Origin: Flavobacteriia bacterium
GTDB taxonomy: Bacteria > Bacteroidota > Bacteroidia > Flavobacteriales > Flavobacteriaceae
Length of the DNA: 17,491 nucleotides
NCBI GenBank assembly: GCA_003973375.1
Contig: QNYL01000018.1
Coordinates: 1-17,491 of the forward strand
Direction of reading: 5' to 3'
Shown here: positions 2,590-17,308 of the stretch, piece after piece
Layout: every line of letters begins with the position of its first letter
How positions within the stretch are numbered: the first letter of the stretch is position 1
The notes under the pieces: generated by a model
Seen by the model: the letters and a program-made list of their open reading frames with translations, nothing else
The model's database searches: none
What the model was told of the DNA's origin: nothing
Position numbers and translations under genes: made by a program

Positions 2590-3342
2590 CTATTCAAAAG
2601 TGAGATTTAAAAAAACACCTTTTACCCCAAAGGAATCAATCGGACCTGTCCAAGGACTATCCGGATGAGAATCTCTTACCAGCTGATCATTGATGGCAAA
2701 GATTCCTCTGATAGAAGGAGAAAATTTAAAGTAAAAGAAGTAGAATTCCATCCCCAGGCCAACTTCATACATAAAGTTATGTGTGGTAGTTCTAAACTGT
2801 GAATCAAAATTATCCAGACTATTATCTTCGTTACTTGAGAAATTATAGTTATACGATGCTCCACCAAGTACAAAGGGGCGGATATTATTTAATCGGTTGG
2901 TGCTGAATTTAAACAACAGAGGTATGTGCAGATAGGTTCCTGTAACGGTCCTTTCAGTATTGGATGTGCCGTTATATCCTGGATTCTCCGGTCCGATATT
3001 GGGATTTAAATAATTAAAAGTTAACGAATTACTCATTAATCCGGGTTCAAGTCGGAGGTTGATATTTTTGTGTAATCTCAGATCTACAACAAAACCGATA
3101 TTAAATCCATAGGCGTTTTCCATATCTAAAGAAAGCTCTTTATTCAGTGGTGGTATCGGATTATAAGATCCGGGATCTTTATAATCAATCTTATAATTAA
3201 AACTGTTCATTCCCAGATAAAATCCAAAGTGGATGGTTCGTTTGTCAAAGTTTGGCAGGTATTCAATTTTTTCTTTTTGCGCATAGACAGAGCCCGTGGC
3301 AAACAGAAAAAAGAAGCTTATCAGATAAATTGTTTTCCTCAT
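2590..3342 (-). CDS. porT: PorT-family outer-membrane beta-barrel protein (type IX secretion)
   Basis: The protein has 250 residues, with a signal peptide (YLISFFFLFATGSVYA, cleavage probably after Ala21) and then a mature protein of alternating amphipathic strands. HFGFYLGMNSFNYKI opens the barrel and an aromatic C-terminal strand ends in NLTFE, as expected for an eight-stranded porin-like barrel. PorT/SprT is an outer-membrane component of the type IX secretion system of Bacteroidota, needed for gliding motility proteins and secreted enzymes in several species. Its place directly downstream of ubiE/menG (4 nt gap, same strand) is the gene order I know for porT in Flavobacterium-like genomes and strengthens the call. 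Sequence alone would give only an outer-membrane beta-barrel protein; the specific name leans on context. Confidence 0.8.
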   Translation of the reverse strand: MRKTIYLISFFFLFATGSVYAQKEKIEYLPNFDKRTIHFGFYLGMNSFNYKIDYKDPGSYNPIPPLNKELSLDMENAYGFNIGFVVDLRLHKNINLRLEPGLMSNSLTFNYLNPNIGPENPGYNGTSNTERTVTGTYLHIPLLFKFSTNRLNNIRPFVLGGASYNYNFSSNEDNSLDNFDSQFRTTTHNFMYEVGLGMEFYFFYFKFSPSIRGIFAINDQLVRDSHPDSPWTGPIDSFGVKGVFLNLTFE

Positions 3343-5356: not shown

Positions 5357-5396
5357 GATAAAATTATATGTTTTTAAAGCAGTTTCTTTATTTAAG

Positions 5397-6437
5397 ATGA
5401 AAGATAAAAAGGATATACGGGCATTGTCTAAAGACCAGTTACGGGATTTCTTTGTTGCAAATGGCGATAAAGCTTTCCGGGGTAACCAGGTCTACGAGTG
5501 GTTATGGAACAAAGGAGCACATTCTTTTGAAGCGATGACCAATGTTTCAAAAGACACCCGTAAAATGCTGGAAGAACATTTTGTGATCAACCATATTGAG
5601 GTTGACAAAATGCAGCAATCTTCTGATGGTACAGTTAAAAATGCCATCAAATTACATGATTCACTTATAGTTGAGTCGGTAATGATCCCTTCCCAAAAAA
5701 GAAGTACGGCTTGTGTTTCCAGTCAGGTAGGATGTAGTCTTAACTGCACTTTTTGTGCTACGGCACGCTTAAAGAGAATGCGTAACCTGAATCCTGATGA
5801 GATCTATGATCAGGTGGTTTCCATTGATCAGCAAAGCAGATTGTTTGAAGGTCATCCGCTAACCAACATTGTTTTTATGGGAATGGGAGAGCCTTTGCTG
5901 AATTATGATAATGTTATAAAAGCCATTGATATGATCATTTCCGATGAAGGCCTCGGGATGTCGCCCAGGAGAATTACCCTTTCTACGGTTGGTTTGCCAA
6001 AGATGATCAAACAACTGGCCGATGATGAGGTAAAATTCAATCTTGCCGTATCTCTGCATTCAGCCATTGATGAGGTAAGATCGGAAATGATGCCTGTAAA
6101 CAGAACACACAATCTTGCCGAGTTACTCGAATCGTTACAGTACTGGTATGCAAAAACTGCCAAAAGGATTACTTTTGAATATGTGGTATGGAAGGGGATC
6201 AACGATAAGAAAAAGGATATAGATGCTTTAGTAGCCTATTGTAAAAGAGTTCCTTCAAAGGTAAATTTGATCGAATACAATGCCATTGATGATGGGGATT
6301 TTCAGCAGGCCGATCCCAAAGCGATCGAATATTATGTCAGAGAGCTTGAAAGAAATAATATTACGGTAAATGTTAGGCGGAGCAGGGGTAAGGATATAGA
6401 TGCTGCCTGCGGACAATTAGCCAATAAAAGCAGTTAA
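5397..6437 (+). CDS. rlmN: Dual-specificity RNA methyltransferase RlmN (23S rRNA A2503 / tRNA A37)
   Basis: A radical-SAM enzyme that makes 2-methyladenosine. I place the start at ATG 5397 (346 residues); an in-frame TTG at 5355 would add 14 residues of non-conserved sequence. The [4Fe-4S] motif is GCSLNCTFCAT (Cys113, Cys117, Cys120), and NIVFMGMGEPLLNYDNV follows. The resolving or methyl-carrying cysteine sits in the C-terminal DAACGQLANKSS (Cys338). The last 11 sense codons, stop and 4 nt form the first copy of a perfect 36-bp direct repeat (6406-6441), so the 3' end of this gene is probably the attachment site of an inserted element. The gene is nevertheless complete. Confidence 0.96.
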   Translation: MKDKKDIRALSKDQLRDFFVANGDKAFRGNQVYEWLWNKGAHSFEAMTNVSKDTRKMLEEHFVINHIEVDKMQQSSDGTVKNAIKLHDSLIVESVMIPSQKRSTACVSSQVGCSLNCTFCATARLKRMRNLNPDEIYDQVVSIDQQSRLFEGHPLTNIVFMGMGEPLLNYDNVIKAIDMIISDEGLGMSPRRITLSTVGLPKMIKQLADDEVKFNLAVSLHSAIDEVRSEMMPVNRTHNLAELLESLQYWYAKTAKRITFEYVVWKGINDKKKDIDALVAYCKRVPSKVNLIEYNAIDDGDFQQADPKAIEYYVRELERNNITVNVRRSRGKDIDAACGQLANKSS

Positions 6438-6441
6438 GTCA
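6406..6441 (+). repeat. 36-bp direct repeat, left copy (rlmN 3' end; attL-like)
   Basis: It starts CCTGCGGACAATTAGCC and ends GCAGTTAAGTCA, and covers the codons for CGQLANKSS and the rlmN stop. It is identical to 7476-7511, exactly 1,070 bp away; bases on either side differ (G versus T before, C versus A after). Confidence 0.95.
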
Positions 6442-6484
6442 CACTAAAAGCAACATAACGGTCAAAACAGACAGATCTAACGAC

Positions 6485-6639
6485 CTAATATATTAGATTC
6501 TGTTGAACTGATACTAAAGATAAGATAAATGAATTACTCTAATCAAAAGAGTAGAAATAAACCACTATGAACTAAAAAGTCCATAGGTTTTGGTAATGAC
6601 TGAAAGTCATCACTCAATAATGAAACTATCATCATTATT
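6485..6639. other. Cluster of four perfect hairpins/palindromes in the insert
   Basis: CTAATA/TATTAG (6485-6496), TACTCT/AGAGTA with a 7-nt loop (6535-6553), ATGACT/AGTCAT with a GAA loop (6596-6610) and AATAATGA/TCATTATT with an 8-nt loop (6616-6639) follow one another within 155 bp. AT-rich DNA forms such stems by chance, but four perfect ones in a row are notable. No T-run follows them, so they do not look like terminators. Confidence 0.4.
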
Positions 6640-6771
6640 TTGATTGGGCTTTCTATGATGTTCCAAATTTTCATTTAAAATGTGAAACAGTATGATTTTG
6701 ACTTCATTGATAATACAATCAACAAAGAAAAGTTTTTAGAAGCTGAAGCAAAATGTACTAAAAGTGTATAG
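6624..6771 (+). pseudogene. Degraded coding remnant
   Basis: A frame starting after a stop at 6621 reads NYHHYFDWAFYDVPNFHLKCETV and ends at TGA 6693-6695. A second frame, open from GTG 6682 to TAG 6769-6771, reads VKQYDFDFIDNTINKEKF and on to LEAEAKCTKSV. Both have protein-like composition and join naturally if one frameshift near 6685 is assumed. I do not recognise a family. This could also be chance. Confidence 0.3.
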
Positions 6772-6778
6772 TTTTAAC

Positions 6779-6801
6779 TATATTTGAGATTAATAAATTT
6801 G
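6779..6801 (+). promoter_or_regulatory. Two overlapping -7-type boxes before the small ORF pair
   Basis: TATATTTG (6779-6786) and TAAATTTG (6794-6801) both match TAnnTTTG, 50-70 nt upstream of the ATG at 6849. No clear -33 TTG is seen. The sequence TATAGT/ACTATA (6767-6782) forms a small hairpin overlapping the first box. Confidence 0.35.
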
Positions 6802-6848
6802 GCTAAAAAAGTTTAGAATAATTATGACTTTCTTTAATCTTAATAAAA

Positions 6849-6982
6849 ATGAATAATATTTTAAAAACAGGATTAAGTTTGGACTAATATGTCATGGTGC
6901 AGTTCTTGCTAGTCAACATTTTGCTTCTGATAACTGTAATGCTAAAGCAGAAGATTGTAAATCTAAACATTATAAATTATGA
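6849..6982 (+). pseudogene. Small cysteine-containing protein with signal-like N-terminus, frameshifted
   Basis: From ATG 6849 the frame reads MNNILKTGLSL and hits a stop (TAA 6885-6887). Dropping back one base near 6880-6882 continues as GLICHGAVLASQHFASDNCN and then AKAEDCKSKHYKL to TGA 6980-6982. The product would be about 44 residues: a hydrophobic signal or anchor segment, then a short polar tail with Cys residues. A single T lost from the TTT run explains the break. The stop overlaps the start of the next ORF as ATGA, which supports both being real coding sequence at one time. No family is recognised. It could instead be a programmed or sequencing frameshift. Confidence 0.45.
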
Positions 6983-7242
6983 AGAAAAATATTTCCATTT
7001 TCAATATATTACCTTTTGCTCTACTTATACTATATTTTGCTATTGATAACTTAGTTCCAAATATAGAAAATAATATTAGGTATGCGCTACTAAGCAGTTT
7101 TATTATAATTTCGTTAATCAGTTTTATTTTTTCAATTAAAAAAGAAAAATCAATACAAAGAAAAAAACAAAAAATTATATTATTATTTATTGGAATTTTG
7201 ATTAGTACTATTCTTTTTCTCAAATTCTATAACGTGGCATAA
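6979..7242 (+). CDS. Small three-helix membrane protein, function unknown
   Basis: The protein has 87 residues, is very rich in Ile/Leu/Phe/Lys and starts MKKNISIFNILPFALL. Three hydrophobic segments are visible at about 8-27, 33-53 and 65-83, separated by charged loops (KKEKSIQRKKQK at 54-65), so it is predicted to sit in the inner membrane. The start codon overlaps the stop of the frameshifted upstream gene (ATGA), suggesting translational coupling. The complementary strand is also open over most of the length, which in AT-rich DNA is weak evidence against it. I recognise no family. It is the only intact gene in the rlmN-end insert and could be cargo such as an immunity-type, toxin-type or orphan membrane protein; none of these can be shown from the sequence. 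Confidence 0.5.
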   Translation: MKKNISIFNILPFALLILYFAIDNLVPNIENNIRYALLSSFIIISLISFIFSIKKEKSIQRKKQKIILLFIGILISTILFLKFYNVA

Positions 7243-7267
7243 CAACACTTAAAGTTTATATTGGTTT

Positions 7268-7434
7268 CTAGTGTCAAGTCAGGTGTATTATGGGGTGAAA
7301 GACGCTGTTATTTTTGTTAAGTGCAAGGCAGAAAACTTTCACTATAGCAGTAGCTATGGTTAAAATTTTTAAAGCAGCAATTGGCAAAAAGAACAAGTCT
7401 TAGTATGTTGAAAATATACTTAACTTGACACTAG
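7268..7434. mobile_element. MITE-like element, 167 bp, with terminal inverted repeats
   Basis: The left end CTAGTGTCAAGT (7268-7279) and right end ACTTGACACTAG (7423-7434) are a perfect 12-bp inverted repeat. Reading further inwards, the two ends still agree at most positions for about 23 bp (CTAGTGTCAAGTYARGTRTATT). The interior has no gene and contains a hairpin ATAGC-AGTA-GCTAT near the middle. No clear target duplication flanks it. It looks like a non-autonomous derivative of an insertion sequence; the parent family is not identified. Confidence 0.55.
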
Positions 7435-7475
7435 GCTTAATTCAATGGTTAGTTATTCTTTAAACGGATATTTTT

Positions 7476-7511
7476 CCTGCGGACAATTAGCCAATAAAAG
7501 CAGTTAAGTCA
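7476..7511 (+). repeat. 36-bp direct repeat, right copy (attR-like)
   Basis: Identical over all 36 bases to the end of rlmN (6406-6441), but here not part of a gene: the upstream sequence (TTTTT) does not continue the rlmN frame meaningfully. It directly precedes the terminator at 7514-7540. Confidence 0.95.
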
Positions 7512-7513
7512 AT

Positions 7514-7540
7514 AAAAAAACCGATGTTCAACATCGATTT
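7514..7540. terminator. Bidirectional terminator of atpG (and originally rlmN)
   Basis: CGATG (7522-7526) pairs with CATCG (7532-7536) across TTCAA, inside a longer perfect palindrome. Seven A's on the left give a T-run for the minus-strand atpG transcript, and ATTTCTT on the right serves the plus strand. It would have followed rlmN directly before the insertion. Confidence 0.85.
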
Positions 7541-7566
7541 CTTATAATATTTATTCAGTAATTTCT

Positions 7567-8433
7567 TTATCCGTTCAAAGCCTCAGCACCTCCAACAATT
7601 TCAAGGATCTCATTGGTAATAGCTGATTGACGGGCTTTGTTGTACTGTAACAGAAGCTCATCTCTAAGATCTGTAGCATTATCGGTAGCCTTGTGCATAG
7701 CAGTCATTCTGGCACCGTGTTCAGAAGCAAAAGAATCCCGAAGTGCTTTGAATAACTGAGTTTTTAATGATTTAGGCAACAGATTATGAATGATCTTCTT
7801 TTCCGATGGTTCAAAAATAAAATTAGTTTCTGTATTAGTGAGATCTTCATCAACCGGAGGAACAATTGGCAGGAATTGCTCTTCAGTTATGATTTGAGTT
7901 GCAGCATTCTTAAACTTATTGTACACAAGGATAATTCTGTCAAAATGCCCGTCGGTAAACTGATCCATCAGATCCTGAGCCATTACATTAACATTTTCAA
8001 AGCTAAGCTTATCAAAAATATCATTTTCATTTCTGAAAATATTCTGGGTTTTAGAAAGGATGTCATTTCCTTTTTTACCAATGGTCATTACAGAAACTTC
8101 ACTGCCTGCATATTTGGTTTCGATCAATTCAATAGTATGTTTTATAATATTCGAATTAAAAGCGCCACAGAGTCCTCTGTTTGAGGTTATTGCAACGATA
8201 AGCACCTTATTTGGATGTCTTTGTACAGTAAAAGCACTTCCGTCAGTAACATCGAGAGAAGAGCTCAAACGCTGGATCAATTCGGTTAACTTATTTGAAT
8301 AAGGTCGCATCTCCACAATAGCTTTTTGAGCCTTTTTTAATTTGGCTGCAGACACCATTTTCATGGCACTTGTAATTTGCATCGTAGATCCGATGGAAGC
8401 TATTCTGTTACGTATTTCTTTTAAGTTTGCCAT
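7567..8433 (-). CDS. atpG: ATP synthase F1 gamma subunit
   Basis: A 288-residue protein forming the rotating central stalk of F1, which couples c-ring rotation to catalysis in the alpha3-beta3 head. The N-terminal helix NLKEIRNRIASIGSTMQITS (3-22), with AMKMVSAAKLKKAQ after it, and the C-terminal helix with LLLQYNKARQSAITNEILEI are the two conserved strands of the coiled-coil rotor. The Rossmann-like middle part includes SNRGLCGAFNSNI. This is the last gene of the minus-strand atp cluster in the window, separated from atpA by 116 nt with hairpins and followed by a strong terminator. The beta and epsilon genes do not follow, as expected for Bacteroidota. Confidence 0.97.
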   Translation of the reverse strand: MANLKEIRNRIASIGSTMQITSAMKMVSAAKLKKAQKAIVEMRPYSNKLTELIQRLSSSLDVTDGSAFTVQRHPNKVLIVAITSNRGLCGAFNSNIIKHTIELIETKYAGSEVSVMTIGKKGNDILSKTQNIFRNENDIFDKLSFENVNVMAQDLMDQFTDGHFDRIILVYNKFKNAATQIITEEQFLPIVPPVDEDLTNTETNFIFEPSEKKIIHNLLPKSLKTQLFKALRDSFASEHGARMTAMHKATDNATDLRDELLLQYNKARQSAITNEILEIVGGAEALNG

Positions 8434-8532
8434 TTTCTGTACTAATCCCTTCGGTAAAATGAAGGCTTTTAATATTTGTTCTTTTTTGTTAAATTTTCTT
8501 TCCTCTAAAGGAAATTACAGGTCAATTTAAAA

Positions 8533-8550
8533 ATTCAGTATTATCTGAAT
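8533..8550 (-). terminator. Attenuator-like hairpin between atpA and atpG
   Basis: On the minus strand the atpA stop runs straight into ATTCAG-ATAATA-CTGAAT followed by TTTTT (8528-8532). The stem is only six pairs and weak, so partial termination or RNA processing is more likely than full termination. A second small hairpin TTTCCT/AGGAAA lies at about 8501-8516. Confidence 0.4.
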
Positions 8551-10130
8551 TAAGCTTTATAGTTTGCAGCAGTATCCTGGGCTACTTTAGTTAAAATTTC
8601 AATAGCTTCATCTGTAAGTTTACCTGATTTAAGTACATTCAAGATGTCTGCATGTTTGTTTCTCAGATAATCAAGATAATTATCTTCAAAATCTTTTACT
8701 TTTTCAACAGGAACTTCCCTCAATAGGTTTTTAGATCCTGCAAAGATAATAGCGATCTGATCCTCCACTCTGTACGGATCGTTTTGAGCCTGCTTCAGGA
8801 TCTCAACATTACGTCTTCCTTTTTCAATTACGTTTAAGGTTGCAGCATCAAGATCGGAGCCAAATTTAGAGAAAGCTTCCAGTTCCCTGAATTGAGCCTG
8901 GTCAAGTTTTAGAGTACCGGCAACTTTTTTCATCGACTTGATCTGTGCGTTTCCTCCTACACGCGATACAGAAATACCCACGTTAATTGCCGGACGAACT
9001 CCCGAGTTAAATAAATCGGTTTCCAGGAAGATCTGACCGTCAGTGATCGAGATCACGTTAGTTGGAATATACGCAGATACATCTCCCGCCTGGGTTTCAA
9101 TAATCGGAAGGGCAGTAAGCGAACCACCACCTTTTACTTTCCCTTTTAAAGAATCGGGAACATCATTCATTTTTTTAGCAATTGAGTCTTCCCCGATGAT
9201 CTTGGCAGCACGTTCCAGTAATCTTGAGTGCAGATAGAATACATCACCCGGGTAGGCTTCACGTCCCGGTGGACGGCGAAGCAGCAAAGATACTTCACGG
9301 TAGGCAACGGCCTGTTTTGACAGATCATCATAAATGATCAGTGCAGGACGGCCTGTGTCTCTGAAATATTCTCCAATGGCTGCACCTGAAAAAGGAGCGT
9401 AGAACTGCATAGGAGCAGCATCCGAAGCATTTGCAGCAACAATGGTTGTATAGGCGAGAGCACCTTTTTCTTCAAGTGTTTTGGCAATATTGGCAATGGT
9501 AGAACCTTTTTGCCCTATGGCAACGTAGATACAGTAAACAGGTTCTCCTGCATCATAAAACTCTTTCTGATTGATAATGGTGTCAATGGCAACAGTTGTT
9601 TTACCGGTCTGACGGTCACCAATAATCAATTCACGTTGACCTCTACCAATCGGGATCATCGCATCGATCGCTTTAATACCTGTTTGTAAAGGTTCGGTTA
9701 CCGGTTCGCGGAAAATTACACCCGGAGCTTTTCTTTCCAAAGGCATTTCAAAAATTTCTCCTTCAATAGGACCTTTACCATCTATGGGTTGCCCCAGCGT
9801 ATCTACCACACGCCCGAGAATCCCTTCTCCTACATTGATAGAGGCAATTCTTTTGGTTCTTTTAACAACAGCACCTTCTTTGATAGCTGTTGATTCTCCT
9901 AAAAGTACAACCCCTACGTTGTCTTCTTCAAGGTTTAGTACAATACCTTCCAATCCGCCCTCAAAAGAGAGCAGTTCACCGTATTGTGCATTGGATAAAC
10001 CATAAACACGGGCAATACCGTCTCCTACCTGTAAAACAGTTCCTACTTCATCCAAAGAGGCTTTGCCTTCAAATCCTGTAAGTTGTTCTTTTAAAATTGC
10101 TGAAATTTCAGCCGGTCTTATTGTTGCCAT
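8550..10130 (-). CDS. atpA: ATP synthase F1 alpha subunit
   Basis: The protein has 526 residues. It is the non-catalytic nucleotide-binding subunit of the F1 head and contributes the arginine finger to the catalytic site on beta. An N-terminal beta-barrel (about 25-95) is followed by Walker A GDRQTGKT (171-178), the Walker B region [11 protein letters not shown] (263-273), [29 protein letters not shown] around 282-310, and [16 protein letters not shown] with the arginine finger at Arg390. A short Lys/Gly-rich insertion ([10 protein letters not shown], 327-336) fits Bacteroidota alpha subunits. The spacing to atpH upstream is 18 nt, so they are co-transcribed. The alpha C-terminal helical domain is complete. 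Confidence 0.98.
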
Positions 10131-10148
10131 ATTATAATTTGTTGTCGT

Positions 10149-10709
10149 TTAATTTAGTTTTGAAATGTATTGATTATCACCAAATCCTTCCAGCACTGAG
10201 TTCAGAAGTCCGGTTACACTTGAATCGAGTTGCTGATCTCCAACGCGCAGGATATACCCGCCAACGATAGAGGGATCAACAATATTTTTAACGGTAATTT
10301 CTTTACCTACAAGTTCAGTTACTTTTTTTAAGAATTCTTTTTCCAGTTCTTTGGTTATAGGAACCGCAGTAGTTACCAGAGCTGTTTCAATACCTTTTAG
10401 ATAATCGTAAATGATTGTGTACTCTTTGGCTACGGGTTCCAAAAGTTCTATTCTGCCGTTTTCAATGAGTAAATTGATTACTTTTTCGGTAAGCGGATTT
10501 ACTTTTTTAACAAATATTTTGGTCAGAACCGATCTTTTTACAGATGATCTTATCACAGGACTTTTAAGCATAACCTGTAAGTCCTTACTTTCAGAAATAG
10601 CTTTGCCGATCAAAATCATATCTTCATTGATCTTATCTGCAATGCCTTTTTCTTTGGCCAGATCCAGGGTTGCCTTTGCGTAACGTAATGCAGCTCTTGT
10701 TCCTTTCAT
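10149..10709 (-). CDS. atpH: ATP synthase delta subunit (OSCP)
   Basis: The protein has 186 residues. It joins the peripheral stalk (b subunits) to the top of the F1 alpha3-beta3 head. The N-terminal helical domain begins GTRAALRYAKATLDLAKEKG, and the C-terminal part holds the delta signature near VDPSIVGGYILRVGDQQLDSS. The gene starts 5 nt after the atpF stop and is followed 18 nt later by atpA, consistent with one operon. Confidence 0.95.
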   Translation of the reverse strand: MKGTRAALRYAKATLDLAKEKGIADKINEDMILIGKAISESKDLQVMLKSPVIRSSVKRSVLTKIFVKKVNPLTEKVINLLIENGRIELLEPVAKEYTIIYDYLKGIETALVTTAVPITKELEKEFLKKVTELVGKEITVKNIVDPSIVGGYILRVGDQQLDSSVTGLLNSVLEGFGDNQYISKLN

Positions 10710-10714
10710 TAATA

Positions 10715-11215
10715 TTATTTTAAAGTGGCCTCATCCAGCATCTTTTTGATCAGATTTAATTGCTGATCTTTTGCGGACAATTCTTTTTTAATTACTTTTT
10801 CAGCGATCTCTACTGAGAGTTCTGCCACGTGATTCTTAAGATCAGTAATTGCAGATTGTTTTTCCAGTTCGATACTGTTTTTGGCCATTTCAATCATATT
10901 ATTGGCCTGAATTTTGGCTTCATCTTTCGCCTCAGCGATCAGCTTATCCTTAATGATACGGGCTTCTTTAAGCATGGCTTCTCTTTCAGCACGGGCTTCT
11001 TTTAAGATCTTTTCGTTGCTGGCTTTTAATTCAGCCATTTCTTCACGGGCTTTCTCGGCCTGCTCCAAAGCTTCTTTAATACCTTCTTCCCTTGAATTTA
11101 CAGCATCCAGAATGGGTTTCCAGGCATATTTGGTTAGAAGCCATAAAAGGAGAATAAACAGCAGGATTTGCCAGAAAAATAGTCCAAATGAAAAATCATT
11201 AATTAGTTTATCCAT
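10715..11215 (-). CDS. atpF: ATP synthase F0 b subunit
   Basis: The protein has 166 residues. A single N-terminal membrane helix (about 11-29, FFWQILLFILLLWLLTKYAW) is followed by a long charged helix rich in Glu/Lys/Ala that dimerises as the peripheral stator stalk. KPILDAVNSREEGIKEALEQ just after the membrane is the conserved hinge. The C-terminal segment LSAKDQQLNLIKKMLDEA binds delta. Only one b-type gene is present. It is preceded by an 81-nt spacer with a very strong hairpin after atpE. Confidence 0.96.
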   Translation of the reverse strand: MDKLINDFSFGLFFWQILLFILLLWLLTKYAWKPILDAVNSREEGIKEALEQAEKAREEMAELKASNEKILKEARAEREAMLKEARIIKDKLIAEAKDEAKIQANNMIEMAKNSIELEKQSAITDLKNHVAELSVEIAEKVIKKELSAKDQQLNLIKKMLDEATLK

Positions 11216-11255
11216 AATTTTAATATATGATCGTAATTTATTAAGTTTTGATTTA

Positions 11256-11290
11256 AATAATAGCTATAACCAACCGTTATAGCTATTATT
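11256..11290 (-). promoter_or_regulatory. Strong intercistronic hairpin after atpE
   Basis: AATAATAGCTATAAC (11256-11270) and GTTATAGCTATTATT (11276-11290) are perfect 15-bp inverted arms around a 5-nt loop. It begins 6 nt after the atpE stop on the minus strand and about 40 nt before the atpF start. No T-run follows, so it looks more like an mRNA 3'-end stabiliser or ribonuclease barrier than a terminator. Confidence 0.7.
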
Positions 11291-11296
11291 GGTTTT

Positions 11297-11551
11297 TTAG
11301 CCTACAAATAATGCGGCAAAGGCAATACCTTCAATCAACGCTGCTGCGATCAGCATGGCTGTTTGAATCTTACCAAAGGCTTCAGGCTGGCGTGCAATGG
11401 CGTCCATTGCTGAACCACCAATTTTACCGATACCGATTCCTGCACCAATTACGATTAAACCTGCACCTACAATTGTTGGAATAATAGGAGTTTTTGCTGC
11501 TTCTTTCGCTACTTCTGCTATTTCTTGAATAGCTGGAATAGAATTTACCAT
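11297..11551 (-). CDS. atpE: ATP synthase F0 c subunit (proteolipid)
   Basis: The protein has 84 residues. Two membrane helices form the rotor-ring hairpin. The first has the glycine-rich GAGIGIGKIGG (36-46), the polar loop is ARQPEAFGK (53-61), and the second carries the ion-binding Glu74 in AALIEGIAFAALFVG. Gly rather than Ser/Thr follows Glu74 and no Gln is seen in the usual helix-1 position of sodium-binding rings, so proton coupling is inferred. There is a 20-residue Ala/Glu-rich N-terminal extension before helix 1. It sits between atpB (36 nt) and a strong hairpin that separates it from atpF, consistent with a need for many copies of c per complex. Confidence 0.97.
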   Translation of the reverse strand: MVNSIPAIQEIAEVAKEAAKTPIIPTIVGAGLIVIGAGIGIGKIGGSAMDAIARQPEAFGKIQTAMLIAAALIEGIAFAALFVG

Positions 11552-11587
11552 AATATAGATATATAATTAATTATTAAACATTCAAAT

Positions 11588-12670
11588 TTAATGTGCTTCT
11601 TCATGTTCATGCTCTTCAACAGCAAAGCCGAAATACAGAGCAGATAACATGGTAAAAATATATGCTTGTAACAATGCTACCAGCAATTCCAGAATTGAAA
11701 GGACAAATGCCAGTAAAAATGTTAAACTTCCTCCAACCCAGTTCTTAAAAATAAAAATCAATCCGATAATACTCATCAGAACCACGTGCCCTGCCATAAT
11801 ATTTGCATACAAACGAATCATCAGGGCAAAAGGCTTGATAAATACCCCAATCAGTTCAATTGGAGCCAAAACGATCTTCATAGGCCAGGGTACACCGGGC
11901 ATCCAGAAAATATGTTTCCAGTAATTTTTATTTCCGGAAAACTGTGTTATGATAAAAGTTATAAGCGCTAAAGCCAGCGTTATGGTTATATTTCCTGTAA
12001 TATTTACCGACAGGGGTGTTAAACCAAATAAGTTTGAAAACCATATAAAGAAAAACACAGTTAACAGGAAGGGCATATATTTTTTATAATGTTTTTCTCC
12101 AATATTGGGTATGGCTATTTCATCTCTGATAAACAGTATAATGGGCTCGAAAAATCTTCCCACACCGGTGGCAATATAACCTTTTTCAAATGATTTTGCC
12201 AAGCCACCAAAGAGTAAGAGCATAAGAATGCCAATAACGATGATCATAAAAACATTCTTAGTAATAGAAAAATCCAGAGGTTTTTCGTTCTCAGGATGCC
12301 CGTGCTCATTTAATTTTAGATCTCCCGAAGCATTGGTTTTGTAAATCTTATTGTGATACAGTTTATAATAATTTCCGTTACTTTCTACAATTTTTTCACC
12401 ATGATGAAATTTAGATGCTGAGAATATATGAAGACCGTTATCCCATAAAATCACAGGTAATGAGAACCCGTAATATTTACCGGTTTCACTGTTGTGAAAG
12501 AAAATAAATTCATGAGAATCCTGAATATGATGGTAAACAGCTTCCTTTATACCGGCTTTTGCTTCGGCTTTCTCGCCTTCACCTTCAACTTTTTCATGCT
12601 GAGCAAAAGAACTTACAGTAAAAAGAAATATAAAAATTGTAAGGAATTTTATTAAAAACTTACTTTGCAT
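11588..12670 (-). CDS. atpB: ATP synthase F0 a subunit with signal peptide and periplasmic domain
   Basis: The protein has 360 residues, about 100 longer than the E. coli a subunit. It starts with a signal peptide (FLIKFLTIFIFLFTVSSFA, cleavage near 23) and a charged, His-rich periplasmic segment (about 24-135). The usual membrane part follows with helices near 138-160, 198-216, 226-245, 265-300 and 315-350. The essential Arg286 lies in PFALMIRLYANIMAGHVVL, which forms the proton path with Glu74 of the c ring. The C-terminus VEEHEHEEAH is His/Glu-rich. The longer N-terminus is known in Bacteroidota a subunits. It is the first of the core atp genes in this order, with a good -7 box 34-41 nt before its start. 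Confidence 0.96.
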   Translation of the reverse strand: MQSKFLIKFLTIFIFLFTVSSFAQHEKVEGEGEKAEAKAGIKEAVYHHIQDSHEFIFFHNSETGKYYGFSLPVILWDNGLHIFSASKFHHGEKIVESNGNYYKLYHNKIYKTNASGDLKLNEHGHPENEKPLDFSITKNVFMIIVIGILMLLLFGGLAKSFEKGYIATGVGRFFEPIILFIRDEIAIPNIGEKHYKKYMPFLLTVFFFIWFSNLFGLTPLSVNITGNITITLALALITFIITQFSGNKNYWKHIFWMPGVPWPMKIVLAPIELIGVFIKPFALMIRLYANIMAGHVVLMSIIGLIFIFKNWVGGSLTFLLAFVLSILELLVALLQAYIFTMLSALYFGFAVEEHEHEEAH

Positions 12671-12703
12671 ATGCTACAATTTTATTCGCTTATATTATAG
12701 CTG

Positions 12704-12711
12704 CAAATGTA
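12704..12711 (-). promoter_or_regulatory. Candidate promoter -7 box for atpBEFHAG
   Basis: The minus strand reads TACATTTG, an exact TAnnTTTG match, 34 nt upstream of the atpB ATG. No convincing -33 TTG is seen, so a readthrough contribution from upstream genes is also likely. Confidence 0.5.
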
Positions 12712-12743
12712 ATATTTTTATTTAGATATAAAACCGGAAATTT

Positions 12744-13121
12744 TTATTTTTTTATGATTTTGATAATACCTAATGTTTCAAATATCAGGCAAATAGCATA
12801 AGGAACAAAAAAAGCAGCAAATTCAATAATTTGAATTTTACCATCGAAATGATAATTGGGATAAAAAACGATAAAAAAGACCAGAAACTTTATAAAACTC
12901 CCTGCCATAAAGAAGAACCCCAGATAATTAGGGTATTTATTCCTTGAAAAAAAGAGAAGGGTATAGATCAGGATGGCCAGTATGTAATTAACAAGATACG
13001 CTTTTACTATTTGGTTATCAAAAAGGGGTAATTTAATAAAATACAGAACGGCTATATGTAATAAAAATACAACAATTAAGGAGATAAAAAGATAAAAGAT
13101 AAAACGACCAACAGGTTTCAT
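12744..13121 (-). CDS. Four-helix membrane protein in AtpI position (possibly DUF6168 family)
   Basis: The protein has 125 residues and is highly hydrophobic. Helices are at about 8-29, 40-58, 66-86 and 98-120, with short loops such as FSRNKYPNY (58-66). I believe it is the small family found before atpB in Flavobacteria (the name DUF6168 is from memory and unverified). The four-helix layout and its place between the AtpZ-like gene and atpB match AtpI, which helps assemble the c ring in other bacteria, but there is no clear sequence signature. It is separated from the AtpZ-like gene by 56 nt, in which a TAGTTTTG -7-type box (13146-13153) could start transcription. Confidence 0.65.
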   Translation of the reverse strand: MKPVGRFIFYLFISLIVVFLLHIAVLYFIKLPLFDNQIVKAYLVNYILAILIYTLLFFSRNKYPNYLGFFFMAGSFIKFLVFFIVFYPNYHFDGKIQIIEFAAFFVPYAICLIFETLGIIKIIKK

Positions 13122-13145
13122 TCAGAAAATTATTTAAGACCGTTG

Positions 13146-13153
13146 CAAAACTA
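13146..13153 (-). promoter_or_regulatory. Candidate -7 box before the four-helix membrane gene
   Basis: TAGTTTTG on the minus strand matches TAnnTTTG, 25 nt before the ATG at 13121. No -33 element is obvious. Confidence 0.35.
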
Positions 13154-13177
13154 TATAGAATTATGAAATAAAGGCTA

Positions 13178-13396
13178 TTATTTATTGATGTTCTTAACCT
13201 GAGTCAGTAGATTGTAAAACGAAATAATTACACCGAGAAGCGTTAGAATTATTGTGTAAATATTATTTTCATTAGGATATCTATGGTCAAGCCATTTGCC
13301 GAAATAGGCTGCCAGAAAAATGGTGACACCCATTTGAAAACCAATACCTGTTAAACGAATGTATTTGTTAAGCTGTTTTTTTGGCTTTTGCTCCAT
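13178..13396 (-). CDS. AtpZ/AtpI-family small membrane protein
   Basis: The protein has 72 residues and two membrane helices: GIGFQMGVTIFLAAYFGKWLD (17-37) and IYTIILTLLGVIISFYNLL (46-64). The first helix, with the Gly pattern and FGKWLD end, is the hallmark of AtpZ/AtpI-type proteins, which in other bacteria support magnesium supply or c-ring assembly of the ATP synthase. Its first 29 nt overlap the 3' end of the bactofilin gene in another frame, so translation of the two is probably coupled. Choosing the next in-frame Met (22) would cut into helix 1, so the overlapping start is preferred. Confidence 0.82.
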   Translation of the reverse strand: MEQKPKKQLNKYIRLTGIGFQMGVTIFLAAYFGKWLDHRYPNENNIYTIILTLLGVIISFYNLLTQVKNINK

Positions 13397-13766
13397 CCTT
13401 ATTGATATTTTTTACGGCTCCTTTCATACTGCAGGTAGCATTGAACTCAGCTCCCGGTTCAACGGATAATTTTTCAAGTACTACATCACCTGTAATATTG
13501 GCGGTTTCTTTTAGTGATAATAATTGGTCAACAATAAGTTTTCCGGAAAAAGCGCCCTCAATATCAGCATTTATACATTCTATGGTACCTTTAACAAAAC
13601 CATCTTTTCCAATGATCACCTTGCCTTTTGATTTGATATTCCCCTCAATTTTTCCGTCAATTCTAAAATCACCATCTGATGAAATATCACCGGTTAATAC
13701 GGTATTCTTTCCTATAATATTGATTTCTGATAATGGTTGTGTTGTCCCTTTTTTTTCGTTAAACAT
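13368..13766 (-). CDS. Bactofilin (polymer-forming cytoskeletal protein)
   Basis: The protein has 132 residues. The central bactofilin domain (about 15-115) is made of short repeating strands of the right-handed beta-helix type: NTVLTGDISSDGDFRIDGKI, EGNIKSKGKVIIGKDGFVKG, ADIEGAFSGKLIVDQLLSLK and ITGDVVLEKLSVEPGAEF. The ends are short and polar, as usual. Bactofilins assemble into filaments without nucleotide and act in cell shape, polarity or organising envelope machines. The start is 4 nt behind sprE and the 3' end overlaps the AtpZ-like gene, so it is locked between a secretion/gliding gene and the ATP synthase cluster. The C-terminus is Lys/Ala-rich. Confidence 0.93.
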   Translation of the reverse strand: MFNEKKGTTQPLSEINIIGKNTVLTGDISSDGDFRIDGKIEGNIKSKGKVIIGKDGFVKGTIECINADIEGAFSGKLIVDQLLSLKETANITGDVVLEKLSVEPGAEFNATCSMKGAVKNINKDGAKAKKTA

Positions 13767-13770
13767 CTCT

Positions 13771-15975
13771 TTATTCTTTTTTTGTGGTTAATTTCTTTAG
13801 TTTTTTAATTGCTTTCTCAGCAAGTTTACTTTCTTCGGTATTTGGGAAGTTGATAATGATGTCATTCAACATCTTGTTACCCGCTTCGGCATTTCCTTTT
13901 TTAACTGCGATAAATGCTTTTAACAGTTCGATCTTAGGTTCAATATCGGTTCCTTCATGATGTTTAATTTCATTTAAGCTGTAAAGCGCATAATCGTAAT
14001 CACCTTCTTTATAGCAAACAAATGCATTTTTATAAATATATTCAGGGGAGTCTTCCTGAAAACTGTTTTTTGCAATAAACCCGGGATTCTTTATGATCTG
14101 AGCATACCTGCTGTCAGGATAATTATTAACGATTTCTTCCTTGTATTTATTGCTTAATTCGGTATTAAAATTTTCGTAACATCTGAACAAATGGTATTTA
14201 ACAGGCAGGATCAGATTGGGGTTGGGATCGGCATTGAGATATTTTTCAAAATTCTGTGCGGCGATCTCAAAATCTTTAAACTGTTCTTTATAAATCAACC
14301 CAAGATTATAATAAGCATTGTTGCGTAATTTTGCTATACTGTCGAGTTGTGATTGCTCCTTTGGGATGCTGCTGAGATAAAAATCGACATTATAACGTTG
14401 AGAGTCATCAACTGCACTTATCTCTTTTTCAGGAGGACCGCTGTTATTGCCTAACTGTTGCCCGGAAAAGATCCAGTTATCCTGTAAAGGGCGGTTACCG
14501 AATTTTCTTTTGAATTCCTGCATTCCAAAACTTGCAACCTGAACATTGTAAAAATAGAACTTTCCTCCGTTTGCATTCTGTTTGGAACCAACCACATTAA
14601 CATCTGTATTTCCTGCCGACAGCTGCTGTTGCTCTTCTATAATCTTTTTTTGTTCATCAACTTCCTTTAAATGGGCAATATAGCCTTCAAAATATTGTTT
14701 TTGTTCATAAGGTCCCATCGCGGCAAGCCTAAGGATGCTGTCGTTGGTCTTTAGAATATTTTCGTAGTAGATCACTTCTTCCAGACTCTTGTTTTTCGCT
14801 ATGATATGCCTGATCCTTTTGGTATTGTGGTCAATGTTGGTTATTTGTAAAACACTATCGTAATAAGCTCCGGCAGTGATGTAATTACCCCCATTAAAAT
14901 AAAGATTTCCCATTTGTTCATAGGATAAACTTTTCTGATAGGGTTTTTTGGTATTGGTTTTAATCGATTCTTTAAAAAATTCAACGGCTTTATCCGTGTT
15001 TCCCTGTTGCAGGGCAATCAGTCCGGCCTGATAGTAAAGTTCGTCATAATAAGGTTTGTTCTCATGGTCTTTGGCAAGATCTTTTAAGGCAAAGATTATA
15101 GCCTCGGTACTGTCTTTATCGGTGTAATTCTTAGCGCGTTCTATTTGCGCATGAACCCGGTATTTATGAGGTACTTTTTTAAGATATAGCAGGGATTCAA
15201 AGGCCATATTAGAAGAATCGATCTTATTCTCTTCCCGGTAGATCTGACCAAGAATAAACATATTTCTTGAGCTCTGTATTGGATCTTTAAAATAATAGGT
15301 AGCCTGTTTTAACTGATCAATCACAAGTTGCGTGCTGTCTAATTGCGTATAGGCCATAGCCAGGGCTGTATGTGCTTTTTCCAGGGTCTCTTCAGGTAAC
15401 TCAACCTTTTTTATGATATTCTGGAGTGTTTCTATGGCGAGTCGCTCGTTTTGTATCCGAATATTCGATTTGGCCCGCCAAATCTTCAGGTCATAATACA
15501 GATCGGCATTAGGATATTTTTCAATGGCATAGGAAAAGGCTTCGAGAGCTGGTACAAAGCGTTGCATATAATATCTCGATCTTCCTAAAAGATAGTAGGC
15601 ATCATCGATCTGGTTATTGCGTTCCAGATCATCGATAATCATCGAGTGTTTCTGAACGGCTTTTACCGCTTTTTCTTCTGCTTTTTCAAAATTTTGTGTT
15701 ACCGGATTCCTGGTCTGCGTCTGTCCTGGCATCGGGATTTTATCTTCTATCTTAAGCGGTTCAATGGGAAGGCGTTTCCAGTAATTGTCCTCATAAGTTT
15801 CATCGAGCAGTTTTTTACCTTCGTTAAAGGCTTCGTTCCCGTTAAAAAGCACATTGAACTTGGCATTCATTTCATGAAATCCGCGATTTATGATAGAATC
15901 TTTTTTAGTTGAACAACTAAAGATGCTAAAGAAGATGCTTATAAAAAATATATATTTCTGGATTCTACTCTTCAA
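13771..15975 (-). CDS. sprE: SprE/PorW-type TPR lipoprotein (gliding motility and type IX secretion)
   Basis: The protein has 734 residues. A lipoprotein signal (KYIFFISIFFSIFSCS, Cys21) is followed by INRGFHEMNAKFNVLFNGNE and AFNEGKKLL, the N-terminal pattern of the SprE/PorW family. Many helical TPR-like repeats follow, for example DDAYYLLGRSRYYMQRFVPA at about 120-140 and later YNLGLIYKEQFKDFEIAAQN, which probably bind other subunits in the periplasm. PorW is required for the type IX secretion system and SprE for gliding in Flavobacterium. The protein ends in a Lys-rich tail. It seems to head the minus-strand cluster with bactofilin 4 nt behind. The upstream box at 16042-16049 (TTTATTTG) is one mismatch from the -7 consensus. 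Confidence 0.85.
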   Translation of the reverse strand: MKSRIQKYIFFISIFFSIFSCSTKKDSIINRGFHEMNAKFNVLFNGNEAFNEGKKLLDETYEDNYWKRLPIEPLKIEDKIPMPGQTQTRNPVTQNFEKAEEKAVKAVQKHSMIIDDLERNNQIDDAYYLLGRSRYYMQRFVPALEAFSYAIEKYPNADLYYDLKIWRAKSNIRIQNERLAIETLQNIIKKVELPEETLEKAHTALAMAYTQLDSTQLVIDQLKQATYYFKDPIQSSRNMFILGQIYREENKIDSSNMAFESLLYLKKVPHKYRVHAQIERAKNYTDKDSTEAIIFALKDLAKDHENKPYYDELYYQAGLIALQQGNTDKAVEFFKESIKTNTKKPYQKSLSYEQMGNLYFNGGNYITAGAYYDSVLQITNIDHNTKRIRHIIAKNKSLEEVIYYENILKTNDSILRLAAMGPYEQKQYFEGYIAHLKEVDEQKKIIEEQQQLSAGNTDVNVVGSKQNANGGKFYFYNVQVASFGMQEFKRKFGNRPLQDNWIFSGQQLGNNSGPPEKEISAVDDSQRYNVDFYLSSIPKEQSQLDSIAKLRNNAYYNLGLIYKEQFKDFEIAAQNFEKYLNADPNPNLILPVKYHLFRCYENFNTELSNKYKEEIVNNYPDSRYAQIIKNPGFIAKNSFQEDSPEYIYKNAFVCYKEGDYDYALYSLNEIKHHEGTDIEPKIELLKAFIAVKKGNAEAGNKMLNDIIINFPNTEESKLAEKAIKKLKKLTTKKE

Positions 15976-16041
15976 AATGCTGCCTGTTGAGTTTTTTAAA
16001 CTTTTTTATTACTTGATTATTGTATAGGGGATGTAAAAGTA

Positions 16042-16049
16042 CAAATAAA
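16042..16049 (-). promoter_or_regulatory. Weak -7-like box upstream of sprE
   Basis: TTTATTTG on the minus strand differs from TAnnTTTG at one position, about 67 nt before the sprE start. It is the only candidate seen in the 85-nt spacer. Confidence 0.25.
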
Positions 16050-16060
16050 TTAAAATACTT

Positions 16061-16771
16061 TCAGGCTTTCAGGTAAACTTTGTATTCAGGATAGAGATTA
16101 CACATTTCTTCTTCGAGCTTTGGAGGAACCAAAGTGATAAGTATATAGACAAAAATGCTAAATACAGTAAGAAAGAACGAGGAAAGAAAAAGTTCTGTTG
16201 AATTCAGGGAGGAAGTGCCGTCAAGATCGATGTATTTGAGTAGCTGAATCGGGATTTGAATTGAAATAATAAAGAGCAGACCCGATTGTTTGATCACTTC
16301 ATCAATCATCCATTTCTTGCCGGTTCTTTTAAATCTTTTTTTAAGTTTTGAACTGTACCTAAGCCCAAATACTACAGGAAAAATAAAAATGATCCAGAAG
16401 GCAATGATCAGTATTGAAATCTCATGCCCGGTAAGTTTTAATATTGAAAAAACAATTAAAGAGATGGTCAGGGTAATGATGATCTTCGGAAGCTTAAAAT
16501 AATCTTTAAAGATCTGCCATAATACTTTCCAGTAGTGTTTGTTTACTGCTTTTGATTTATCTGCAATCACATCCATAAACCCGAAAATGCCAAACTTTTT
16601 AAAAGCTTTGTTCTTTGCCTGGTCAAAACTCAGATTGGGTTCTTTCTCCCAGATCGCCTCGATATCATTGGCCAGATGATCCACCAGTTCTGTTTGCAGA
16701 TCGTACCATTCTACATAATGTGCTCTGGTAAATTTATAAAGTTGATCGATATGTTCTTTGGTAAGTTTCAT
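16061..16771 (-). CDS. Membrane protein with HAAS/permease-prefix-like N-terminal domain
   Basis: The protein has 236 residues. The N-terminal part, about 1-65 (HIDQLYKFTRAHYVEWYDLQ then TELVDHLANDIE, ending in FDQAKNKAFKKFG), has the pattern of HAAS/permease-prefix domains: an ELxDHL motif and a terminal FG turn. Four membrane helices follow at about 96-113, 116-137, 163-180 and 196-215, with a basic cytoplasmic loop KLKKRFKRTGKK (142-153). The C-terminus EEMCNLYPEYKVYLKA is polar. Proteins of this type often accompany PadR-like regulators and membrane stress systems, but no regulator is in the window. Its ATG overlaps the stop of the upstream ORF fragment (ATGA), so the two form a coupled pair. 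The function is unknown. Confidence 0.75.
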   Translation of the reverse strand: MKLTKEHIDQLYKFTRAHYVEWYDLQTELVDHLANDIEAIWEKEPNLSFDQAKNKAFKKFGIFGFMDVIADKSKAVNKHYWKVLWQIFKDYFKLPKIIITLTISLIVFSILKLTGHEISILIIAFWIIFIFPVVFGLRYSSKLKKRFKRTGKKWMIDEVIKQSGLLFIISIQIPIQLLKYIDLDGTSSLNSTELFLSSFFLTVFSIFVYILITLVPPKLEEEMCNLYPEYKVYLKA

Positions 16772-16923
16772 ATGGACTGGAGTTCTTTATATAATCGATT
16801 GTATTCAGTTTGTGTTTTACGATAAACTTTAAGTCCTGTAAAGAACCAGATTAAACTCAGGATCACATAGCCTGTGAAAATTGAAAGGTAGACCCCTCTT
16901 TGGAATAAAATAGAGACAGCTAT
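16768..16923 (-). pseudogene. 3' end of a membrane-protein gene, cut off at the 70-bp repeat array
   Basis: The minus-strand frame from 16923 to TGA (16770-16768) encodes IAVSILFQRGVYLSIFTGYV followed by ILSLIWFFTGLKVYRKTQTE and YNRLYKELQSI. The last 35-40 residues look like real bacterial protein: one membrane helix then a basic, polar tail. The stop overlaps the next start as ATGA. Upstream, the frame enters repeat unit 1 and meets a stop at 16926-16924, and no usable ATG exists, so the 5' part of the gene is missing. The break lies somewhere within about 16889-16905. Either a repeat insertion or an assembly join removed the rest. Confidence 0.6.
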
Positions 16924-17308
16924 TCAGCATTATGCAAAGCCTGCGCAAAAATAGCGGATAGACCCCTTTTTGGTTTGTGTAGACCAGAGAATAGACCTAT
17001 ACAAAAGGTATCTGTTATCTATTATTAGTAGTAGTATTTTTCGAGCAACATAGAGACAGCTATACTGCATTATTCAAAGCCTGTGCAAATAAAGGGTGTA
17101 GACCCTTCTTTCGAGCAACACAGAGACAGTTATTCTGCATTATGCAAAGCCTGTGCAAATATAGGGTGTCGACCCCTCTTTCGTGCAACACAGAGACAGT
17201 TATTCTGCATTATATAAAGTATGCACATATATTCGGGGCAGACCCCTTCGTCAGGCAAATACACACAGCTGTTCTGCACTACATAAAGCAAGTGGAAATG
17301 TTCGTGGA
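16889..17308. repeat. Tandem array of six 70-bp units
   Basis: The landmark GACCC recurs at 16891, 16961, 17101, 17171 and 17241, and AGAGACAG at 16912, 17052, 17122 and 17192, always at multiples of exactly 70. Units 16889-16958, 17029-17098, 17099-17168 and 17169-17238 are clearly alike, sharing AGAGACAGYTAT, CTGCATTAT and GCAAAGCCTGTGCAAAT. Unit 2 (16959-17028) keeps its first 15 nt but is otherwise degenerate. Unit 6 (17239-17308) is strongly diverged. Seventy is not a multiple of three and the frames are full of stops, so it is not a protein repeat. There is no constant-repeat/unique-spacer pattern, so it is not CRISPR. Confidence 0.85.

Follow-up and report, generated by a model that had tools for sequence, protein, structure and literature searches.

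A 36-bp duplication of the rlmN 3′ end flanks a 1,034-bp AT-rich insert in a Flavobacteriaceae genome: a possible remnant of site-specific integration

Introduction

Remnants of genomic islands that lack an integrase occur at the 3′ ends of genes, and the SCC elements at rlmH are the best-known case involving a methyltransferase gene. The locus described here lies on a 17,491-nt stretch of a Flavobacteriaceae genome, referred to below as the window. It resembles such remnants in having direct repeats that restore the 3′ end of a gene, an empty site in a relative and a foreign composition. It differs from them in that no recombinase, relative of the element or second occupied site was found for the window in the searches reported below.

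The use of rlmN as an integration target is not new, having been reported for an AICE of Streptomyces. AICE03 of strain RLB3-6 is integrated in rlmN, is flanked by 11-nt direct repeats and encodes its own integrase, and its relatives at tRNA-Val have 46-nt repeats, according to the available part of the report (PMC9513070). The window shares with AICE03 both integration at rlmN and flanking direct repeats; AICE03, however, is an AICE of Actinobacteria with an integrase and an excisionase and with the much shorter repeats just mentioned, and the end of rlmN that is concerned is not given in that part of the report (PMC9513070).

Two groups of insertion sequences also invite comparison. IS1549 and IS1634 resemble the locus in their long flanking repeats, as far as the excerpted account describes them, but the insert in the window has neither inverted ends nor a transposase (PMC2266710). 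The likeness to IS200/IS605 is that 246 bp of the insert can be aligned with the two ends of an IS200-type element; this stretch, in contrast, is internally deleted, dead, and located inside the insert rather than at its borders.

Results

The duplication and the insert

The features of the locus are collected in Table 1. The 36-mer CCTGCGGACAATTAGCCAATAAAAGCAGTTAAGTCA stands twice, in copies which are 100% identical and which start 1,070 nt apart; the rlmN stop codon is included in its 32 nt of rlmN. The GC content of the insert between the copies is 26%, versus 40% for rlmN. The second copy is followed, after 10 nt, by a CGATG/CATCG hairpin. The sequence running on from the second copy, GTCAATAAAAAAACCGATG, belongs to the native flank, and native DNA thus borders the locus on either side. 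No inverted repeats were detected at the ends of the insert (score 14 versus a shuffled mean of 15.3, p 0.78).

Exact direct repeats of at least 18 bp, lying within 6 kb of each other, were surveyed in 26 sequences of the source genome (370,948 bases, window included), with words occurring more than six times in one sequence excluded. The 36-mer was the longest. The runners-up were two 29-bp repeats, recurring at 70 and 81 bp in the manner of tandem arrays, and a 23-bp pair with a spacing of 846 bp was also recovered. Chance cannot explain an exact repeat of 36 nt.

Table 1. Features at the rlmN–atpG junction (positions are those of the window)
Feature	Position	Strand	Remarks
rlmN, intact, 346 aa	5397..6437	+	Pfam RlmN_N, Radical_SAM; TIGR00048 RlmN equivalog 395.8 bits, cut-off 290
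36-bp direct repeat, copy 1	6406..6441	+	last 32 nt of rlmN + GTCA
Insert, 1,034 bp, 26% GC	6442..7475		missing from the orthologous G001 site
IS200-type remnant, decayed, internally deleted	6555..6800	-	both ends kept, most of transposase lost; match to G011 element
41-codon stop-to-stop frame	6857..6982	+	overlaps start of next ORF (6979-7242)
87-aa ORF, hydrophobic, membrane-like	6979..7242	+	no family match above cut-off
Palindromic dispersed repeat, 167 bp	7268..7434		22-nt inverted ends; folds along whole length
36-bp direct repeat, copy 2	7476..7511	+	joined to native right flank
Terminator-like hairpin	7522..7536		between rlmN and atpG; also at G001 empty site
atpG	7567..8433	-	convergent with rlmN

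The empty site and the age of the insertion

An RlmN search of 60 relatives gave 55 matches at E ≤ 1e-100, and 30 loci, that of the window included, were compared. Taken with the 80 loci described below (30 + 80, partly from the same genomes), atpG lies beside rlmN in only two of 110 loci, those of the window and of G001, which makes G001 the sole informative relative. G001 belongs to the same genus as the window; its RlmN is 96% identical and its rlmN DNA 90.2% identical.

At the orthologous junction of G001, AGCAGTTAA-TCCAAAATAAAAAAACCGATGTTCAACATCGG, a single copy of the rlmN end is followed by the terminator and then by atpG, with no insert between them and with synteny on both sides. Window positions 5372-6449 align with 8115-9192 of the G001 locus (L043), and positions 7476-16771 with 9149-18335. 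In G001 coordinates the two blocks share 44 bp, such that one target stretch is used twice; this is expected because one target site stands twice in the window. A unit of 1,070 bp, made up of the 1,034 bp and one 36-bp repeat, is thus present between rlmN and the terminator in the window and absent from the same site in G001. Owing to the doubling of 36 bp of the target, RlmN stayed whole. The duplicated target, together with the foreign composition, marks the event as a gain on the branch of the window rather than a loss from that of G001.

These comparisons bear out the initial annotation in its description of the locus. It had noted a perfect 36-bp duplication of the rlmN end, an AT-rich spacer of 1,034 bp, a gene regenerated intact and the absence of an integrase; the copies are identical, the spacer has the low GC content given above, rlmN is whole by its TIGR00048 score, and the longest stop-to-stop frame within the insert is 88 codons. 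It had also recommended a search for an empty site in related strains, which G001 provides, and had held that a spacer shared, with both copies, by all relatives would speak against its proposal; G001 is without the spacer.

With an empty site known from a sister species, the insertion is a clean one, and limits can be put on its age. rlmN differs from that of G001 by 9.8% overall and by 24.5% at third positions. If the right-hand copy is free to drift, and if its drift is assumed to be about 12% per lineage, or about half of the third-position difference accumulated since the split, the chance of 36 unchanged sites (0.88^36) is about 1% by our own arithmetic. The insertion is therefore probably recent, and younger than the split between the window and G001. 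The last 33 nt of rlmN in G001 are, however, identical to those in the window, suggesting that this stretch changes slowly, being kept by selection or by luck, which weakens the argument from age given above.

Contents of the insert

The insert is largely decayed debris. Its 246-bp IS200-type stretch aligns in pieces, at 72-85%, with the two ends of an element of about 590 bp which is multicopy in another genome (G011; L064 1170-1761), and about 340 bp of the middle of that element are missing. The 157-aa ORF of the G011 element is a Y1/IS200 (IS200/IS605) transposase (PF01797 125.2 bits, NF033573 130.3 bits). No Y1 transposase was found in the source genome; G001 has two.

The 41-codon frame, for which no homologue was found, probably represents the rear portion of a small gene whose frame is broken, judging from its letters. 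As a partner of the 87-aa ORF, it could be what remains of a small secreted-peptide gene overlapping the start of that ORF. Among 5.8 billion proteins the 87-aa product has three matches, namely itself, P0002 (99%, on an 18,968-base contig) and P0003 (91%, on a 590-base contig); no relative was confirmed in genome contigs or viral contigs. Of 299 family genomes compared, E ≤ 0.01 was reached in 26. The source genome gives 1.4e-46; the other 25 matches (E 2.7e-4 or weaker, 22-40% identity, several across stop codons) were treated as low-complexity membrane matches.

Outside its own locus, the middle of the insert (6801-7267) gave only matches of E 4.2e-4 or weaker in six genomes of the genus. 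Rfam gave no match at E ≤ 1, and no similar element was found in phage records. Plasmid records yielded a 59-bp match of 81% (E 2e-3) in the IS200 part, which falls under a cytochrome gene in two Nitratiruptor plasmids and was taken as chance.

The right-hand part of the insert contains a near-perfect palindromic repeat that begins CTAGTGTCAAGT. Its inverted ends are 86% complementary, and its end-to-end fold has a predicted energy of -58.7 kcal/mol with RNA parameters and -28.9 with DNA parameters (z -5.7 versus 200 shuffles). The repeat occurs at five places in the source genome (G000): the window, contigs C142 (94%) and C130 (91%), and, in part, C205 and C80. In G001 it occurs at three places (C68, C13 and C19), the copies on C68 and C13 also matching reversed, in palindrome-like fashion; none was found in the other four of the six genus genomes at E ≤ 1e-5. 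It looks like a non-autonomous hairpin element. No direct repeats of at least 18 bp surround its other copies on the contigs read from its own genome, the copy on C205 reaching the contig end so that its right side lies out of view; the 167-bp repeat therefore does not explain the 36-bp duplication. Several of its copies lie near contig ends.

Recombinases

A search with PF00589 found two tyrosine recombinases in the source genome and two in G001. In the source genome, one is XerD (TIGR02225 344.4 bits, cut-off 329.6) and the other has XerC as its best match (TIGR02224 303.3 bits, cut-off 335.15 not reached). G001 has XerD (344.9 bits) and one protein that reaches no NCBIfam cut-off (its highest score being 165.2 for NF040815, where 220 is required). 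The source genome is 75.7% complete, so an integrase could lie in the missing part. The insert, with its longest frame of 88 codons, contains no recombinase gene; such a gene can be absent from satellites and from decayed remnants. Core-type inverted repeats around a crossover are often weak, and no core-type dyad rose above shuffles in the 36-mer (p 0.80).

Use of the rlmN 3′ end elsewhere

Repeated use of the rlmN end was sought with an exact degenerate 21-mer for CGQLANK, a motif search which misses short or drifted att copies. The motif is present in 379 of 397 family genomes, and only in the genome of the window do two copies stand on one contig; in a further genome (G408) the two copies are on separate contigs and differ in their codons. 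In an order-wide sample of 296 genomes, overlapping the family sample, 172 matched, and besides the genome of the window only G574 has two copies. These motifs of G574 (C2:282-302 and C27:85956-85976) are on the same strand of different contigs and use different codons, one of them standing 282 bases from the contig start. Judged by position and letters, the pair possibly reflects a second rlmN-like gene.

Relaxed local alignment covered at most 10 kb downstream of rlmN in 80 named loci, the top 80 among 587 confirmed relatives, and recovered no second rlmN tail; five of the 80 have less than 1.5 kb downstream. The window scored 72 versus 35 for the best other locus (L138). That locus exceeds all of its 200 shuffles with a 19-of-20 match 6.6 kb downstream; the match lies inside a 473-aa frame (...PKDIDAA...), is without CGQLANK and was set aside as a coding coincidence. 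The scores of 29 in L132 and L123 were equalled or exceeded by 11 and 12 of 200 shuffles, respectively. Within 1.5 kb, likewise, none of the other 29 loci in the set of 30 has a second tail (scores 15-24 versus 72 for the window), and in each the score is at or below the best of 20 shuffles, except in L018 (22 versus 21). The sets of 30 and 80 loci share some genomes.

A crude profile built from three recombinases found no integrase in 2,496 ORFs of the 110 loci; it was controlled with a protein closely related to one of the three and could therefore miss distant integrases. A scan of viral sequences for the rlmN end motif gave one match (L071), at the start of an apparent tail tape-measure gene in an unrelated phage; this was taken as chance.

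Recurrent use of the rlmN 3′ end was thus not found in the genomes and loci surveyed. The initial annotation had put this end forward as an attachment site which it did not know to be described. The insertion, the empty site and the whole rlmN stand; use of the site by elements in the group is unsupported, no second occupied site having been recovered, and the novelty falls away with the published Streptomyces AICE in rlmN, as far as the available part of that report goes (PMC9513070). The passages that mention rlmN in PMC11983580 and PMC9864904 deal with matters other than insertion there. An attachment site is a possible interpretation of what is a single case.

Discussion

The locus is interpreted, with a probability of about one half, as a remnant of site-specific integration at the rlmN 3′ end from which the recombinase is absent. 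A site-specific recombinase leaves just this pattern, a perfect 36-bp duplication restoring the end of a conserved gene around an insert that lacks inverted ends. The length of the repeat and its position at a gene 3′ end would fit repeats made by an integrase, and the 99% and 91% relatives of the 87-aa protein stand on other contigs, as mobile cargo might. Counted against such an origin are the lack of an integrase in the insert, the finding of only two tyrosine recombinases in the incomplete genome, the lack of any second use of the site in the genomes and loci surveyed and, although such repeats are often weak, of a core-type dyad above shuffles, and the failure to find a similar element in phage records or, beyond the 59-bp match, in plasmid records.

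In the proposed mechanism, a site-specific recombinase would have inserted an element into the rlmN 3′ end, the two 36-mers being attL and attR. The recombinase gene would since have been lost by internal deletion, or the enzyme supplied in trans. Cargo and debris would have been left behind, comprising the IS200-type remnant, the broken small gene, the 87-aa membrane-like ORF and the dispersed palindromic repeat. Without machinery of its own the present insert is probably stuck, except that recombination of its two flanking repeats could, rarely, remove it. If integration was site-specific, rlmN is added as a target in the Flavobacteriaceae after the reported Streptomyces case, and a very small element becomes available for tracing its recombinase. 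In a bolder version, which is improbable, the unit of 1.07 kb would be a minimal satellite without an integrase; it would need just the 36-bp site and its cargo, be moved by the recombinase of another element or by XerC/XerD, and have the rlmN 3′ end as its site in the genus.

The absence of a recombinase, of a relative of the element and of a second occupied site keeps illegitimate insertion in serious consideration as the main rival, at odds clearly below even. Here repair or transformation would have joined a fragment to the chromosome, either with one end guided by homology inside rlmN or into a staggered break; the repeat would be the overlap of the two joints, and no recombinase would have taken part. 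Homology-facilitated illegitimate recombination has been described, as the excerpted source sets out (PMC3240628). The debris-like insert, devoid of a recombinase, and the single use of the site among the relatives searched both suit this origin. Its position is weak evidence for an integrase, since near a stop codon only insertions that keep the gene end survive. A perfect target duplication of 36 bp is, however, long for illegitimate insertions. Microhomology at the right joint is also unconvincing: a GGATAT match lies 4-8 nt away, with a p value of 0.02 for a span of 20 nt and 0.20 for one of 40 nt, and 28% of the windows taken within the insert do no worse. If the insertion was illegitimate, the locus is an ordinary example of the build-up of intergenic debris.

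The structure might also be an artefact of short-read assembly, which would have merged a chromosome whose site is empty with an insert plus one 36-mer that belongs to a small circle or to another strain. The assembly graph of an empty site plus a circle equals that of the integrated unit, and the assembly is fragmented, the contig being one of 315. Against this, a 36-bp repeat is short for collapse by an assembler, and, more tentatively, the 99% relative of the 87-aa protein is on an 18,968-base contig and not on a 1-kb circle. Such a merger is very doubtful.

Placement by a transposon with long, variable target duplications is the least credible origin, as the precedent of IS1549 and IS1634, which leave duplications of 8-514 bp according to the excerpted account (PMC2266710), is outweighed by the missing terminal inverted repeats, which count against a DDE transposon, by the lack of a transposase frame spanning the insert and by the lack of direct repeats of at least 18 bp around the other copies of the hairpin repeat on the own-genome contigs read.

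Other features of the window

The type IX secretion genes porT/sprT (2590-3342, minus strand) and porW/sprE (13771-15975, minus strand) flank the rlmN–ATP synthase region and are ordinary core genes. An array of units of about 70 bp occupies positions 16900-17300, just before the contig end. TRF reports a period of 70 with 2.5 copies and 92% matches at 17039-17213, further degenerate units of about 70 bp are visible by eye around this interval, and the array is followed by a stretch which apparently encodes the start of a small basic protein.
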